The notes under the pieces are model-generated. The model had not been told where the DNA came from. It saw only the letters and a program-made list of their open reading frames with translations, and searched no databases. A stretch of DNA of 64,000 bases from Planctomycetota bacterium (GTDB lineage: Bacteria > Planctomycetota > UBA1135 > GCA-002686595). This document shows, in pieces, positions 53,862-58,934 of the stretch (within the stretch, counting starts at the first letter, position 1; each line of letters starts with the position of its first letter). The position numbers and the translations under genes were made by a program. The stretch is from the NCBI GenBank assembly GCA_020853575.1, contig JADYYP010000062.1:1-64000 (forward strand), given 5' to 3'.

Positions 53862-54581
53862 TCACTTCTTCGCGGCGCGTGCCGCCTCGACCTTGGCCCA
53901 CATGCCGTCCGAGTCCTTGGTCACGGCCTTCTTGCAGCCGGCGCAGCACAGCCGGAAGTAGCGCGTGCCGTAGAGGAAGTCGACCGGTTGCATGTTGGGG
54001 TCCTTGCCGATCGTCTCGCCGGTCACCACGCATGTTTCCAGCGGATAGCTGGCCTTCTGCGCGGCGATGTAGGCGTCACCGAGTTTCTTGAGCGTCGGCT
54101 CGGCGTTCTTCTTGATCTCGGCGACGCAGTCGTTGCAGCAGGCGCGGATCAGGCGCGTGCCGTGCACGTAGTTGACGGCCTTCTCGCCCAACTTCTCGCC
54201 GCTGATCGGGCACTTCTCGAGTGGATAGCGAGCGAGCTGCTGCTCGATCACCGCGGCGTCGATCTTCTTGAACGCGGCGGACTTGTCCTTCTCGACGGCG
54301 GCCACGCAGTCCTTGCAGCACACGCGCACCAGCCTGCCATCGACGACGTGGTTGATCGCGTTCTTGCCCAACTCCTCGCCGCTGATCACGCACTTCTTGA
54401 GCGGGTAACAGGCGCTCTGGAAGTCGATCAGGCCCTGGTTGGGATCCGCGGCGGGCTTGGTTTCTTGGACCTTCTGACCGGCCGGACGCTCGCCGCTGGC
54501 GGGCTTCCCGTCCTGGGCCGAGGCCAACATCGATCCACCGAGCGCGACACACACCGCCAGCGCAACCAACAACTGCTTCAT
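53862..54581 (-). CDS. Secreted protein with three 60-residue YHS-like Cys repeats, 239 aa
   Basis: A signal peptide (1-22, ending SAQ) is followed by a polar linker and three repeats with an exact 60-residue period. Each begins YPL(K/E)xC(V/P)(I/V)(S/T)GE and ends in CCxxC: Cys 64, 88, 89, 92; 124, 148, 149, 152; 184, 212, 213, 216. In each repeat a conserved GxxLG / VxxxxGTR segment lies between. The pattern CPxSG ... FCCxxC is that of YHS-type metal sites, here tandemly repeated. The start has AAGGAG eight bases upstream, and a TAGACT box lies further up. It probably binds copper, zinc or another soft metal in the periplasm. The gene is next to the metal-uptake operon. Confidence 0.75.
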   Translation of the reverse strand: MKQLLVALAVCVALGGSMLASAQDGKPASGERPAGQKVQETKPAADPNQGLIDFQSACYPLKKCVISGEELGKNAINHVVDGRLVRVCCKDCVAAVEKDKSAAFKKIDAAVIEQQLARYPLEKCPISGEKLGEKAVNYVHGTRLIRACCNDCVAEIKKNAEPTLKKLGDAYIAAQKASYPLETCVVTGETIGKDPNMQPVDFLYGTRYFRLCCAGCKKAVTKDSDGMWAKVEAARAAKK

Positions 54582-54683: not shown

Positions 54684-55577
54684 TCAGCGCACCGTACGCC
54701 GGACCAGCAAGGCCGGAACGTGAAGCACGGCCGCGGCCGCGACCACCGACGCGCCCATCGGCAGATCGAGCTCGAACGAGGCGCACACGCCCAACAGCAC
54801 CGCGGCAACGCCAAATGAGCTCGCCAGCCACAGGAACTGGGTCATCGAGCCCGCGAAAGCCCGCGCACTCAGCGCCGGGAACACCAACAGTCCGAAGAGG
54901 ATCACCGGTCCCAGCGTCATCGCCCCCACCGACACCGTCAGGCCGATCACGAGGTTGAGCAGGAGCTCGAAGGCCACGACGCGTTTGCCCAGGACCTGCG
55001 CGCTCTCGCGGTCGTAGCTGACCAGCAAGATGTCGCGATGGAACAGAACGAACACCAAAGCCACGCAACCGAGCAGCACGGCGATGGTCTCGAACTCGTG
55101 CACGCCGATGCCCAGCATCTCACCGGTGACGAGCTCGTCGACGAACCCGCGCCCGACGGGCGAGAGCCTCCCGAAGAGCACGGTCGCGGCGGTTGCCAGC
55201 GCAAACGCGGCCGCGACGCGCCCGATCTCGCTGCCACCGCGACGGCCGAGCCAGGCCAGCGCGCCCAGGCCACCGAAGGTGAACACTCCGGCCCAGGCCA
55301 GGTGGTAGTTCATCGCGGCGTGCGTGTCGCTGGTCGCGGTGGCGAGGTCGAGCTCGCCGATGCCGATGTGCTCGATCCACCAGGGCATCACTACGAACCC
55401 GAAGACCATGCCCGCGGTGGCGAACTGTGGGAGCGCGATGCCGTAGAAGCTCGTGCGCCGCACGTGGAGGAACGCGCCCAGCAGTGGACACACGGCACCG
55501 GCGCTCAGCGCCGCGAGCAGGGCCCAGCGGAACAGCGAGAGTCGCTCGGCCCAGGTGATCGAGTCGAAGCCGTCCAT
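54684..55577 (-). CDS. Metal (zinc/manganese-type) ABC transporter permease, 297 aa
   Basis: Eight or so hydrophobic helices with the ABC-3 family wording: LGAFLHVRRTSFYGIALPQF, EFETIAVLLGCVALVFVLF, SYDRESAQVLG and GPVILFGLLVFPALSARAF. The family includes ZnuB and MntB. The ATG overlaps the ATPase stop codon (ATGA). It is the last gene of a leftward operon: porin, binding protein, ATPase, permease. Confidence 0.9.
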   Translation of the reverse strand: MDGFDSITWAERLSLFRWALLAALSAGAVCPLLGAFLHVRRTSFYGIALPQFATAGMVFGFVVMPWWIEHIGIGELDLATATSDTHAAMNYHLAWAGVFTFGGLGALAWLGRRGGSEIGRVAAAFALATAATVLFGRLSPVGRGFVDELVTGEMLGIGVHEFETIAVLLGCVALVFVLFHRDILLVSYDRESAQVLGKRVVAFELLLNLVIGLTVSVGAMTLGPVILFGLLVFPALSARAFAGSMTQFLWLASSFGVAAVLLGVCASFELDLPMGASVVAAAAVLHVPALLVRRTVR

Positions 55578-56296
55578 CAGCGGAGCTGCGCGGGCGCGCT
55601 GCCCTCCTCCGAGGAGTAGAGCTGGTCCAAACGCTCGGGCTTGAGCATCTCGAAGGCCGGTCCGCGCAGCACGCGATGGTCGGCGACCCACAGAACGCTC
55701 TGCACCGTCCGTCGCACCATGGCGAGCTCGTGGCTCACCAGCAAGATCGCCAAGCCCTCCTTGGTGCTGAGCTCGAGCAGCAGCTCCATGATGCGCGTCT
55801 GCGCGGCGCGGTCGACGCCGCTGGTGGGCTCGTCGAGCAACAGGATCTGGGGCTCGACCATCAACGCGCGAGCGATCAACACGCGCTGTCGCTGGCCTCC
55901 GGACAGCGACGAAAACGGGTGCGCGCGGCGGTCGAGCATGTCGACGCGCTCGAGGCACGCTCGCGCGCGTTCGCGCGCCGCCGAGCTCAAGCCGCGCAGG
56001 CCGCGCAACTTGCCGTAGGCGCCCATCTGCACGACCTCCTCGACGTTGACCGGATAGATCGGATCGAGCGTTTCGCGCTGCGGCACGTAACCGATGTCAT
56101 CGGCCCGGCGCTCGACGCTGCCGGAAAGCGGCGGGATCAGTCCGAGTAGACCGCGGAACAGCGTGGTTTTCCCGGCGCCGTTGGGGCCGACGATGCCGAG
56201 GAACTCGCCCGCGTCGATCTCGAGCTCGACACCGCGAATCACGGGCGTCCCGGAATAGCCGAAGGCTGCGTCGTGTGCGCTGAGGAGGGCGGTCAT
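55577..56296 (-). CDS. Metal (zinc/manganese-type) ABC transporter ATPase, 239 aa
   Basis: Walker A GPNGAGKTT at 37-45, Q-loop GYVPQRETLDPIYPV, signature LSGGQRQRVLIARAL and Walker B ILLLDEPTSGVD with SHELAMV. The GYVPQR / IYPVNVEEVVQMG wording is characteristic of ZnuC/MntB-type ATPases. The gene lies 14 bases after the binding-protein stop and overlaps the permease start. It powers the uptake system of this operon. Confidence 0.92.
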   Translation of the reverse strand: MTALLSAHDAAFGYSGTPVIRGVELEIDAGEFLGIVGPNGAGKTTLFRGLLGLIPPLSGSVERRADDIGYVPQRETLDPIYPVNVEEVVQMGAYGKLRGLRGLSSAARERARACLERVDMLDRRAHPFSSLSGGQRQRVLIARALMVEPQILLLDEPTSGVDRAAQTRIMELLLELSTKEGLAILLVSHELAMVRRTVQSVLWVADHRVLRGPAFEMLKPERLDQLYSSEEGSAPAQLR

Positions 56297-56310: not shown

Positions 56311-57258
56311 CTACTTCTGCGGCGCGCTCATTCCGATCGCCTCGTCGAGGCGTCGGTGGACCAGGTCCATCATTCCGATCCAGGTTTCGCTGCCGGCGAT
56401 CCCGCCGCACATGTTCGGAAGCTCGACCGTGCGCGCGCCCGTGGCCTCGGCGACGCGTTCGACTTGATCGCCGTTGGACCAGATCGCGGTCAGGATCGTC
56501 GCGCAGTTCGCGGCCTTCATGCGCCCGACGAGCTCGGCAATGTGGTTGGGCGTCGGCGGGATGCCGGGCTTGGACTCGATCGCGCCGCACGGGGCGAGCT
56601 CGTAGCGCGCGATCAGGTAGCTGTACTCTTGGTGGTAGACCACCACCGGTTTTCCCTTCCAGCTCGCGCCCAGCTTGCTCCAGCGCTCTTCCGCAACGGC
56701 CAAGCGCGTGAGGTAGGCGTCGCGGCGCTCGGTGTAGAGCGGTTTCGAGGCCGCATCGACGCGGCACAAGCCGGCGTAGATGCGCTCGACCAAGTGACGC
56801 CCGGCGCGCGGGTCGAGGTTCATGTGCGGGTTGCCCTGCGGATGCAGGTCCCCACCTTGGCGCGAGAGGTCGCGAGGCACGTCGATCGCGCTCCAACCTT
56901 CCGAGCCGTTGACGAAGCCCGCGCCGCCCGGCTTGACCTTCGCGTTGCCGCATTGCTCGATCAGGCCCGGCACGAACGAGGTCTCGAGCGACAGGCCGAT
57001 CTGCACGAACAGGTCGGCCTTGGAGAGCGCGACCAAGTGGCTCGGCCGCGGCGTGACGGCGTGCAAGTTCTCCTTGCCGCGGCAGATCGTGGTCACGGCC
57101 ACGCGCTCGCCACCCACCTCTTGGACGAGATCGGCCAAGTCGGGGATCGTGACCACGACCTTGAGCTTGTCCTGGGCTACGGCGCTCGAGCTGAAGAGCG
57201 CAGTAGCAAACGTCGAGAGCGCCCACAGACGCACCCATTTGGCGATGCGGGAGATCAC
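56311..57258 (-). CDS. Metal-binding ABC transporter substrate-binding protein (ZnuA/MntA-type), 315 aa
   Basis: A signal peptide (about 1-29, ending SAVAQ) precedes VVVTIPDLADLVQEVGGERV. Likely metal ligands are His66 in GKENLHAVTPRPS, the His of GNPHMNLDPRAGRHLVERIY, the His of VVYHQEYSYL and an Asp near the C-terminal SNGDQVER. The His/Asp-rich loop that many zinc-specific ZnuA proteins carry is absent, so the metal could be zinc or manganese. The GTG start overlaps the porin stop codon (GTGA), so the binding protein is coupled to the porin. Confidence 0.87.
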   Translation of the reverse strand: MISRIAKWVRLWALSTFATALFSSSAVAQDKLKVVVTIPDLADLVQEVGGERVAVTTICRGKENLHAVTPRPSHLVALSKADLFVQIGLSLETSFVPGLIEQCGNAKVKPGGAGFVNGSEGWSAIDVPRDLSRQGGDLHPQGNPHMNLDPRAGRHLVERIYAGLCRVDAASKPLYTERRDAYLTRLAVAEERWSKLGASWKGKPVVVYHQEYSYLIARYELAPCGAIESKPGIPPTPNHIAELVGRMKAANCATILTAIWSNGDQVERVAEATGARTVELPNMCGGIAGSETWIGMMDLVHRRLDEAIGMSAPQK

Positions 57259-58502
57259 CAGTTCACCCCGTGCCCATGCGCACCGACGATCGCCGTGTAC
57301 TGGAGCGCCAGCGTGGCCAGCGGATCGTCGCCCTCTCCATCGGAGTGAGCGAGCACCAAGCGCAAGCGATGGAACTCGGAGAACATGCGCGTGAAGTACA
57401 GCTCGACCTCGTAGGCCTCGGATTGGATCGCGTCGGCGCGCTCGACCAGACTGTACTGCGCCCCCGCCGAGTTGAATCGGTCCCAAGCGTAGTCGGCCCA
57501 CACGAAGAACCCGCCGACTTGCTCGTCGAGGATCGAAAGCGCGGCGTCCGCGGTGCCGGGGTTGTTGTCGGGGTCGGGGTCGACCTCGAAACCGTTGTCC
57601 CCCATCGACAACAAGTACTCGCCGCCGAGCGTGAACTTGCGCTCGCCGGTCTCGCCGGTCCAACCGTAGGTCAGATCGAGGCCGAGGACGTTGGACGAGA
57701 GGCTGTCGGCCTGGGCAGTGTTGCCCGCGCCGTCGTCGTACACCACGGAGTAGCGCGGGATCGAGCGCAACGACGTGCCCAGCTGCAGGACGCTGGCGTC
57801 GCTGAGGTCGGTGAAAGCCGTCACGCGTGCGGTGAAGTTGAAGTCCTCGAGCTCCTTCGAAGAGTCGATCTCCGCCGCGGCCTCGGTCGCGGGGTCGAAG
57901 TCCTCCTCTTCCTCGGGCAACGTGTTGGCGAGCGCCGCGATCGACCAGCGCACCGCGGTGCCCTCGCCGACGCCGGTCCAGCTGTCCCACTCGAGTCCCT
58001 CGCCCTTGACCTCGTCGCCGAGGTACTCACGCAGCACCAGCGGGCGTTCGAGCGTGCGCAACTCGTGCACGTGCGTCTGCATCTGCTTGCCGAAGTCGAC
58101 GAAAAAGCGCCCGGCGCGGATCACGTTGTTGCCGCCGAGCCCGGTGAAGTGCACCGCGGCCTCCTCGACGTTGAGCGCTTCGTCCTCGACCGCGCCCACG
58201 AAATACGCCCAGGCCTTCGGGTCGACCCAGGCGTTGCCCGCGAACTCGAGCGTGCGCAGAGCTGCGTCGAAGCCGTCGTCGCTCGCGGGGGAATCGTCGT
58301 AGCGCAGCACGCTGTCGACGATGAACGACAGCGCTGGGTTGAACTCGTTGGAGAAGCGCGAGGCCTGGCCCGAGTCGCTGCCCGAGTCCGCGCGTACGCC
58401 GAGCGACGGCATGCCAGGAGTCTGGAACGCGGCGCCCTGGGCCAGGGCCATCGACGGCAAAACCAACGTGGCGGCGAGGCCACGGACGGAGCGTGTATTC
58501 AT
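57255..58502 (-). CDS. Porin-like outer-membrane protein heading the metal-uptake operon, 415 aa
   Basis: A signal peptide (about 1-22, ending LAQ) is followed by alternating amphipathic strands typical of a beta barrel: NNVIRAGRFFVDFGKQM, TAVRWSIAALANTL, YSVVYDDGAGN, GLDLTYGWTGETGERKFTLG, EVELYFTRMFSEFHRLRLVL and the final QYTAIVGAHGHGVNW. An acidic stretch EEEEDFDPATEAAAEID (about 189-205) looks like an external loop. Its GTGA overlap with the binding protein indicates co-expression. It probably lets zinc or another metal cross the outer membrane. No Zur-type palindrome is visible upstream. Confidence 0.75.
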   Translation of the reverse strand: MNTRSVRGLAATLVLPSMALAQGAAFQTPGMPSLGVRADSGSDSGQASRFSNEFNPALSFIVDSVLRYDDSPASDDGFDAALRTLEFAGNAWVDPKAWAYFVGAVEDEALNVEEAAVHFTGLGGNNVIRAGRFFVDFGKQMQTHVHELRTLERPLVLREYLGDEVKGEGLEWDSWTGVGEGTAVRWSIAALANTLPEEEEDFDPATEAAAEIDSSKELEDFNFTARVTAFTDLSDASVLQLGTSLRSIPRYSVVYDDGAGNTAQADSLSSNVLGLDLTYGWTGETGERKFTLGGEYLLSMGDNGFEVDPDPDNNPGTADAALSILDEQVGGFFVWADYAWDRFNSAGAQYSLVERADAIQSEAYEVELYFTRMFSEFHRLRLVLAHSDGEGDDPLATLALQYTAIVGAHGHGVNW

Positions 58503-58718: not shown

Positions 58719-58934
58719 TCAGTTGATCGTCTTGCCGGTCGCCGGGCAGACCTTCTGTTCGCCCGAGCACTCGGCCTTGGCCTTGTCGGCGCAGCAGCCT
58801 TCCTTCTTCTCGCCCGAGCACTCCGTGCCGCAGGCCGCGCCCGGAGCCGACGCATCGCCGGTGGCGTTGGTCTTCTCTTGCGAGGCGCAGGCGGCGGCGG
58901 CGACGAGGGCCAGGCCCAGGATCAAATTCTTCAT
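58719..58934 (-). CDS. Cysteine-rich lipoprotein, 71 aa
   Basis: The N-terminus MKNLILGLALVAAAACAS has a lipobox with acylation at Cys16. The 55-residue mature part contains six more cysteines (35, 39, 47, 48, 56, 63) in CGTECSG, EGCCAD, AECSGEQKVCPATGK. CPATGK echoes the YHS-type CPxSG of the triple-repeat protein 4 kb away. The start has AAGGAG eight bases upstream. It probably binds metal at the inner face of the outer membrane. It precedes the metal-uptake operon on the same strand but is separated from it by a strong hairpin. Confidence 0.7.
   Translation of the reverse strand: MKNLILGLALVAAAACASQEKTNATGDASAPGAACGTECSGEKKEGCCADKAKAECSGEQKVCPATGKTIN

Follow-up and report, generated by a model that had tools for sequence, protein, structure and literature searches.

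What does a small, apparently exported protein made of three Cys-rich modules do at the end of a zinc-type importer operon? The question is raised by a minus-strand open reading frame (positions 53862-54581, open from ATG to stop, 239 residues) in the window analysed here, which is a 64,000-nucleotide stretch of Planctomycetota contig JADYYP010000062.1. The reading that we favour, at a probability of roughly 0.6, is that of a periplasmic metallochaperone or buffer that is linked with zinc in its own genus and with copper or silver elsewhere; its export, metal binding, metal identity and metal transfer are what we infer from the triplication, the conserved cysteines, the predicted fold, the gene linkage, and the lack of any CusF or ZinT profile match in the class genomes sampled.

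The three modules are not a chance resemblance: when the protein is compared with itself at an offset of 60 residues, 50 of 179 positions are identical, far above the best count of 29 in 1000 shuffles (offsets 20-179). The tripeptide YPL recurs at residues 59, 119 and 179, placing module starts exactly 60 residues apart. A preliminary description of this DNA had spoken of three exact 60-residue repeats. The exactness holds for the spacing of the starts alone; the modules are diverged copies (repeats 1 and 3 are, respectively, 51% and 36% identical to repeat 2), and repeat 3 carries a 4-residue insert ahead of its hairpin, which is why the distance from the first Cys to the CC pair is 28 in the third module and 24 in each of the others. 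The internal triplication of one YHS-like module stands, on the offset-60 identities, the likeness of the three modules in the AlphaFold2 model and their alignment with YHS domains by hhalign. The N-terminus (MKQLLVALAVCVALGGSMLASA, followed by QD) resembles a signal peptide, as judged by eye, in agreement with the earlier designation of the protein as secreted.

The family is widespread. With the window protein as query, relatives are found in 31 of 41 genomes (its own included), and a profile of 29 proteins has matches at an expectation value (E) ≤1e-20 in 107 of 151 genomes of the class and in 37 of 149 genomes of a phylum sample. Among 61 proteins whose modules were aligned, 44 have three modules, 8 have two, 7 have four and 2 have five (the counts come from trimmed rows and are perhaps too low). 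Alignment A2 omits the truncated L018 and L040; the window copy L005 and L012-L015, which are copies of L007-L010, are left out as well. The prevalence of three modules in a family so widely distributed implies, as far as sequences tell, that triplication is the usual state of an old family and not a recent event in the host genome.

Comparisons of sequence and of structure agree, weakly but consistently, in placing the protein with the YHS/TRASH treble-clef domains. Structure prediction, which the preliminary description had proposed as a check, yields three modules of the same form, each a hairpin and two helices (AlphaFold2, 6-sequence alignment; mean predicted local distance difference test score (pLDDT) 82.8, and ≥87 in all ten-residue blocks from residue 51 onward), and a lone module modelled with 18 aligned repeats reaches a pLDDT of 89.1. 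The top structural match is toluene 4-monooxygenase, in its YHS region (3dhi; Z 6.0-6.1 over 51-55 residues, root-mean-square deviation 2.4-2.8), below which come related hydroxylases, then Cap5 HNH nucleases (Z ≤4.6) and ribosomal L24e. Foldseek matches include L24e, LIM domains and the TRASH domain of ZMYM5 (best E 0.078). These structural matches, weak when taken alone, are in agreement with the sequence profiles. Aligned by hhalign with three YHS domains (two from the window's own genome, one from G022), the repeats score 92.4% with an E of 5e-7 over 42 columns, in a register that sets CPxSG over DPVCG (P-x-S-G on P-V-C-G) and CCxxC over C-x3-C; at E ≤0.01, Pfam assigns TRASH_HVO_1752_C to 24, Arc_trans_TRASH to 15 and YHS to 8 of the 29 proteins, the window protein having Arc_trans_TRASH alone of the three. 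For the window protein, Pfam and NCBIfam give nothing above a curated cut-off and a sequence search of the PDB nothing better than E 1.1; the profile of 29 relatives finds no PDB chain at E ≤1. Two weak matches, to Lar (E 0.00075; 19.8 bits, where the cut-off is 39.6) and to interleukin-17 receptor D (E 0.012), are discounted as due to chance or to the Cys pattern.

By sequence and modelled structure, the triple-module protein is probably built from an altered form of an already known YHS/TRASH-type domain. With YHS (PF04945) and TRASH (PF08394, PF24273) its modules share the predicted fold class, the C-x3-C pair, the hairpin/helix register and a Cys where the knuckle has Asp or Cys. In contrast, the second knuckle Cys is replaced (mostly by Ser or Thr), an extra Cys adjoins the third ligand, the family usually has three tandem copies in one apparently exported chain, and the window protein itself falls under the Pfam cut-offs. 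The cysteine spacing is C-x23-C-x3-C in the first two modules and, with the insert, C-x27-C-x3-C in the third; the original description of TRASH reportedly gives C-x19-22-C-x3-C. NosL and MerB are also duplicated TRASH-like treble clefs (a NosL chain is among the structural matches, at Z 3.1), but their duplicates are fused into one new fold that has lost zinc binding, whereas the modules of the window protein are separate and keep their cysteines.

The alteration of the metal site is nearly uniform. Classical YHS ligands, as PMC4626032 gives them, are [Asp/Cys]-x2-Cys together with Cys-x3-Cys, and the four cysteines of L24e hold cadmium. Across 186 aligned modules of 61 proteins (gathered by means of a model built from 18 repeats of this type, a procedure that leans to its own pattern and may have missed variants with a second knuckle Cys), the first knuckle Cys is present in 183, each of the two C-x3-C cysteines in 180, and the additional vicinal Cys that turns them into CCxxC in 179. 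The four-Cys set is complete in 179 modules, including all 33 of the 11 Zn-linked proteins (those with zinc-type importer genes alongside). At the second knuckle position there are 145 Ser and 18 Thr (163 together), 23 other residues and not one Cys; the YHS pattern [D/C]-x2-C plus C-x3-C is thus absent from this set, the knuckle's second Cys being found in 0 of 186. Four sulfurs per module would remain available, one of them at a new place, and might jointly bind one ion. Losses of Cys affect single modules of proteins whose other modules are intact (L062, L064, L134, L135, L136, L149 and L151; 7 of 186). In the genome from which the window comes, a canonical YHS domain (DPVC; L002, 1492-1641, contig C24) already has a vicinal pair (FCCEHC) and may represent a step between the classical site and the altered one; a YHS-like stretch elsewhere in that genome (L004, 1501-1578, contig C25) is without the C-x3-C cysteines.

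In the window, the minus-strand gene order is lipoprotein, putative porin, ZnuA-type binding protein, ATPase, ABC-3 permease (of the ATP-binding cassette, ABC, importer) and then the triple-module gene, and this order is kept, as far as the contigs extend, in all six of the other genomes of its genus (G001-G006) and likewise at L011. (The triple-module gene of G003 is split across two contigs, of which one was checked for the operon, and lies outside the survey described below; the G005 contig starts within the ZnuA gene and the G006 contig within or near the porin gene.) Pfam and NCBIfam assignments of the permease, ATPase and binding protein confirm the earlier placement of the triple-module gene beside a metal uptake operon. 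The best NCBIfam model for the binding protein is AztC, below its cut-off, and a His of this protein aligns with a Glu of the manganese protein MntC (4irm), at a position that we take to separate zinc from manganese binding proteins. No minus-strand terminator-like site is listed in the gap between the permease and triple-module genes, and the region has no sigma-70 consensus promoter; terminator-like sites number 9 against a shuffle mean of 3.0, which says little for such a genome. Upstream of the lipoprotein gene, the 5 operons compared have no common palindrome, and for this reason no regulator is proposed.

Linkage to metal transporters extends beyond the genus, with a change of partner. 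We surveyed 40 further loci from 38 genomes, hand-picked with a preference for strong matches among the genomes that have one (107 of the class, 37 of the phylum sample) and without sight of the neighbouring genes. A metal transporter gene lies within 6 kb at 18 of these 40 loci; in 20 control stretches, taken from the same contigs at a distance of mostly 40 kb and counted over their full length, there is none (Fisher p 1.2e-4, with related loci treated as independent). Two pairs of surveyed loci come from single genomes (G041, G055), the L120 contig is, to judge by its length, also that of L011, and a few contigs are short. The limits of distance and score were set by us, and neighbourhoods with OEP only or with a more distant CusB (L145, L150) are uncounted. 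CusA is the partner at 11 loci (at one on the opposite strand), ZnuA with an ABC-3 permease at 5 and a P1B ATPase alone, on the opposite strand, at 2, leaving 22 with none. When all 61 proteins are labelled, the window's included, 11 are Zn-linked, 16 Cus-linked and 2 P1B-linked, and 32 have no such label; on a tree of these 61, Zn linkage requires 4 changes and Cus linkage 9, with a bootstrap that had not converged. CusBA-type genes adjoin relatives at L061, L063, L066, L069 and L070 and stand near divergent relatives at L044, L045 and L050; P1B ATPases with heavy-metal domains are found at L063 and L069. At ten loci of the first batch (L059, L060, L062, L064, L065, L067, L068, L071, L072 and L073) there is no tested transporter gene within 6 kb. 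At L069 (6897-9260, 9280-10110; G022, a genome in two contigs) the triple-module gene is flanked by CusBA on one side and, on the other, by a P1B ATPase with HMBD and YHS domains of its own.

How such a protein might work can be put as follows. The chain would be exported to the periplasm, where each YHS/TRASH-like module would bind a soft metal ion through its one N-terminal knuckle Cys and its CCxxC cluster, and the whole would serve the neighbouring transporter as a metallochaperone or buffer with several sites, the partner differing by lineage. In the genus, the protein may load the ZnuA-type binding protein of the zinc-type ABC importer, or keep metal for it, somewhat as AztD and ZinT do; its relatives may feed Cu(I) or Ag(I) to the CusBA pump, as CusF does. 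The earlier suggestion of a periplasmic metal buffer or chaperone gains indirect support from the neighbourhood in many genomes, the near-invariant four cysteines and the fold. They fit more than one metal, because 16 of the 23 transporter-linked proteins outside the genus adjoin CusA-type efflux genes and 5 a zinc-type importer; guilt by association makes zinc the likelier metal in the genus, where the importer is the neighbour, and copper or silver the likelier beside CusBA.

The known chaperones with which the window protein was compared, CusF, AztD and ZinT, differ from it. CusF, the periplasmic Cu(I)/Ag(I) chaperone of CusCFBA, shares with it a CusBA neighbour (in the relatives) and the proposed delivery role. 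The fold and ligands of CusF are different, and its profile (PF11604) is not among the window protein's Pfam matches at E ≤1. AztD and ZinT, periplasmic zinc chaperones of AztABC and ZnuABC, are likewise tied to a zinc ABC importer, but the window protein consists of three Cys-rich treble-clef-like modules. AztD, according to PMC6689063, is a beta-propeller zinc chaperone encoded and working with AztABC; the model of the window protein has three small hairpin-plus-helix modules in place of a propeller. CusF and ZinT, each sought with a single Pfam model that matches the positive-control genomes, are found in 0 of 151 class genomes; two known periplasmic chaperones thus go undetected where the triple-module family is common (AztD was not searched for). 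Among the papers listed in searches of the open-access literature, none describes exported proteins with YHS domains in tandem that accompany CusBA or a zinc importer.

Several observations weigh against a metallochaperone or buffer, and some of them suit other readings. A Z of about 6 falls under the structure comparison tool's safe level, with treble-clef-like Cap5 HNH nucleases not far below (Z 4.5-4.6), and Foldseek has no match at E ≤0.001. The window protein's best Pfam match, Arc_trans_TRASH at E=0.0061, is below cut-off, and Pfam YHS (PF04945) does not match it up to E=1. The 102-base gap that separates the permease gene from the triple-module gene allows separate transcription, and the case from missing chaperones rests on one Pfam model for each of the two that were sought. 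There is also the lack of a tested transporter gene within 6 kb for 32 of the 61 proteins (some on short contigs), which would suit a periplasmic sponge that sequesters copper, silver or zinc for resistance and hands nothing to a transporter. Three sites per chain fit storage of this kind, but it would account neither for recurrent adjacency to transporters of two unrelated types nor for the kept position at the end of the importer operon, and we consider it unlikely.

The four cysteines of each module could, in a periplasmic protein, pair as disulfides. Vicinal Cys pairs and the periplasmic location would suit a redox or structural protein, held by disulfides or structural zinc, whose modules make protein-protein contacts in transporter assembly. 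Treble-clef domains often hold structural zinc, and the YHS domain of toluene 4-monooxygenase is metal-free in the crystal (PMC4626032). Such a role sits poorly with linkage to metal transporters of opposite direction and with a four-Cys set within a metal-binding fold class; we judge it distinctly improbable. A periplasmic sensor that reports metal status to a regulator has a proposed precedent in the YHS-bearing adenylyl cyclase of M. phlei, which is turned on by copper (PMC4626032), but no regulator recurs among the Pfam-annotated neighbours (many neighbours are unannotated, and a sigma-70-type gene is near L059 alone), and this reading has very little to recommend it.

A Met-bearing loop is a candidate for a difference between Cus-linked and Zn-linked modules. 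Of the Cus-linked modules, 35 of 47 have an MG or MK loop, against 6 of 34 Zn-linked modules (the 34 include a stray L123 match that is not a true module) and 31 of 95 unlinked modules; the loop pattern was picked after the sequences had been viewed, and a Fisher value on loops disregards relatedness. Four of the 6 Zn-linked cases are EMK loops in module 3 of own-genus relatives. A commoner Met loop in Cus-linked modules would be in keeping with a softer site for Cu(I) or Ag(I). This is offered as a hypothesis only, because supported branches of the tree yield too few independent Zn/Cus contrasts (1 pair). In its widest form, the idea would be that Planctomycetota use a widespread tandem YHS metallochaperone with altered ligands in place of CusF and ZinT, and that one lineage recruited it from copper/silver efflux to zinc import with loss of the xMG[DE]P Met loop in modules 1 and 2; we hold this to be doubtful. 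The interest of the family lies in its being widespread, apparently exported and putatively metal-binding, with an altered site, in a phylum about whose handling of periplasmic metals little is known, and in the natural comparison offered by one scaffold that accompanies zinc import in one lineage and copper-type efflux in others.

Coordinates of the triple-module gene, its parts and the neighbouring operon genes in the window
Feature	Coordinates	Strand	Evidence
Triple-module secreted protein, 239 residues, apparently exported	53862..54581	-	Open reading frame, repeats, homologues, model pLDDT
Probable signal peptide, residues 1-22, AxA-type end	54516..54581	-	By eye; residues 1-43 have pLDDT <50
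Module 1, residues 59-118 (C64, C88, C89, C92)	54228..54407	-	Repeats, model
Module 2, residues 119-178 (C124, C148, C149, C152)	54048..54227	-	Repeats, model
Module 3, residues 179-239 (C184, C212, C213, C216), 4-residue insert	53865..54047	-	Repeats, model
ABC-3 permease, zinc/manganese type	54684..55577	-	PF00950 E=3.9e-28; conserved neighbour
ABC ATPase	55577..56296	-	Top NCBIfam model AztA, below cut-off
ZnuA-type binding protein, GTG start inferred	56311..57258	-	PF01297 E=1.7e-44
Putative outer-membrane porin, start inferred	57255..58502	-	Weak Porin_O_P match, PF07396 E=0.062; conserved position
Cys-rich lipoprotein, 71 residues, operon head, C-terminal CPxTGK	58719..58934	-	Conserved position; homologue comparison

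Motifs akin to parts of the module occur in two other proteins of the window, as the preliminary description had noticed. The CPxTGK of the lipoprotein at the operon's head, a half-YHS motif, is present as described and is kept in 6 of 6 sequences compared. Homologues of this lipoprotein are found at L007, L010, L011, L058 and L071, and at L071 the homologue adjoins the triple-module gene at a locus with no tested metal transporter gene within 6 kb. The second protein, encoded at 1169-2338, is a planctomycete cytochrome (PSCyt1, E 2.7e-14) with leucine-rich repeats; its single CPxSG...CCxxC element matches PF04945 at E=0.00031 (21.1 bits, below the cut-off of 30.3), and the YHS-like module is C-terminal.
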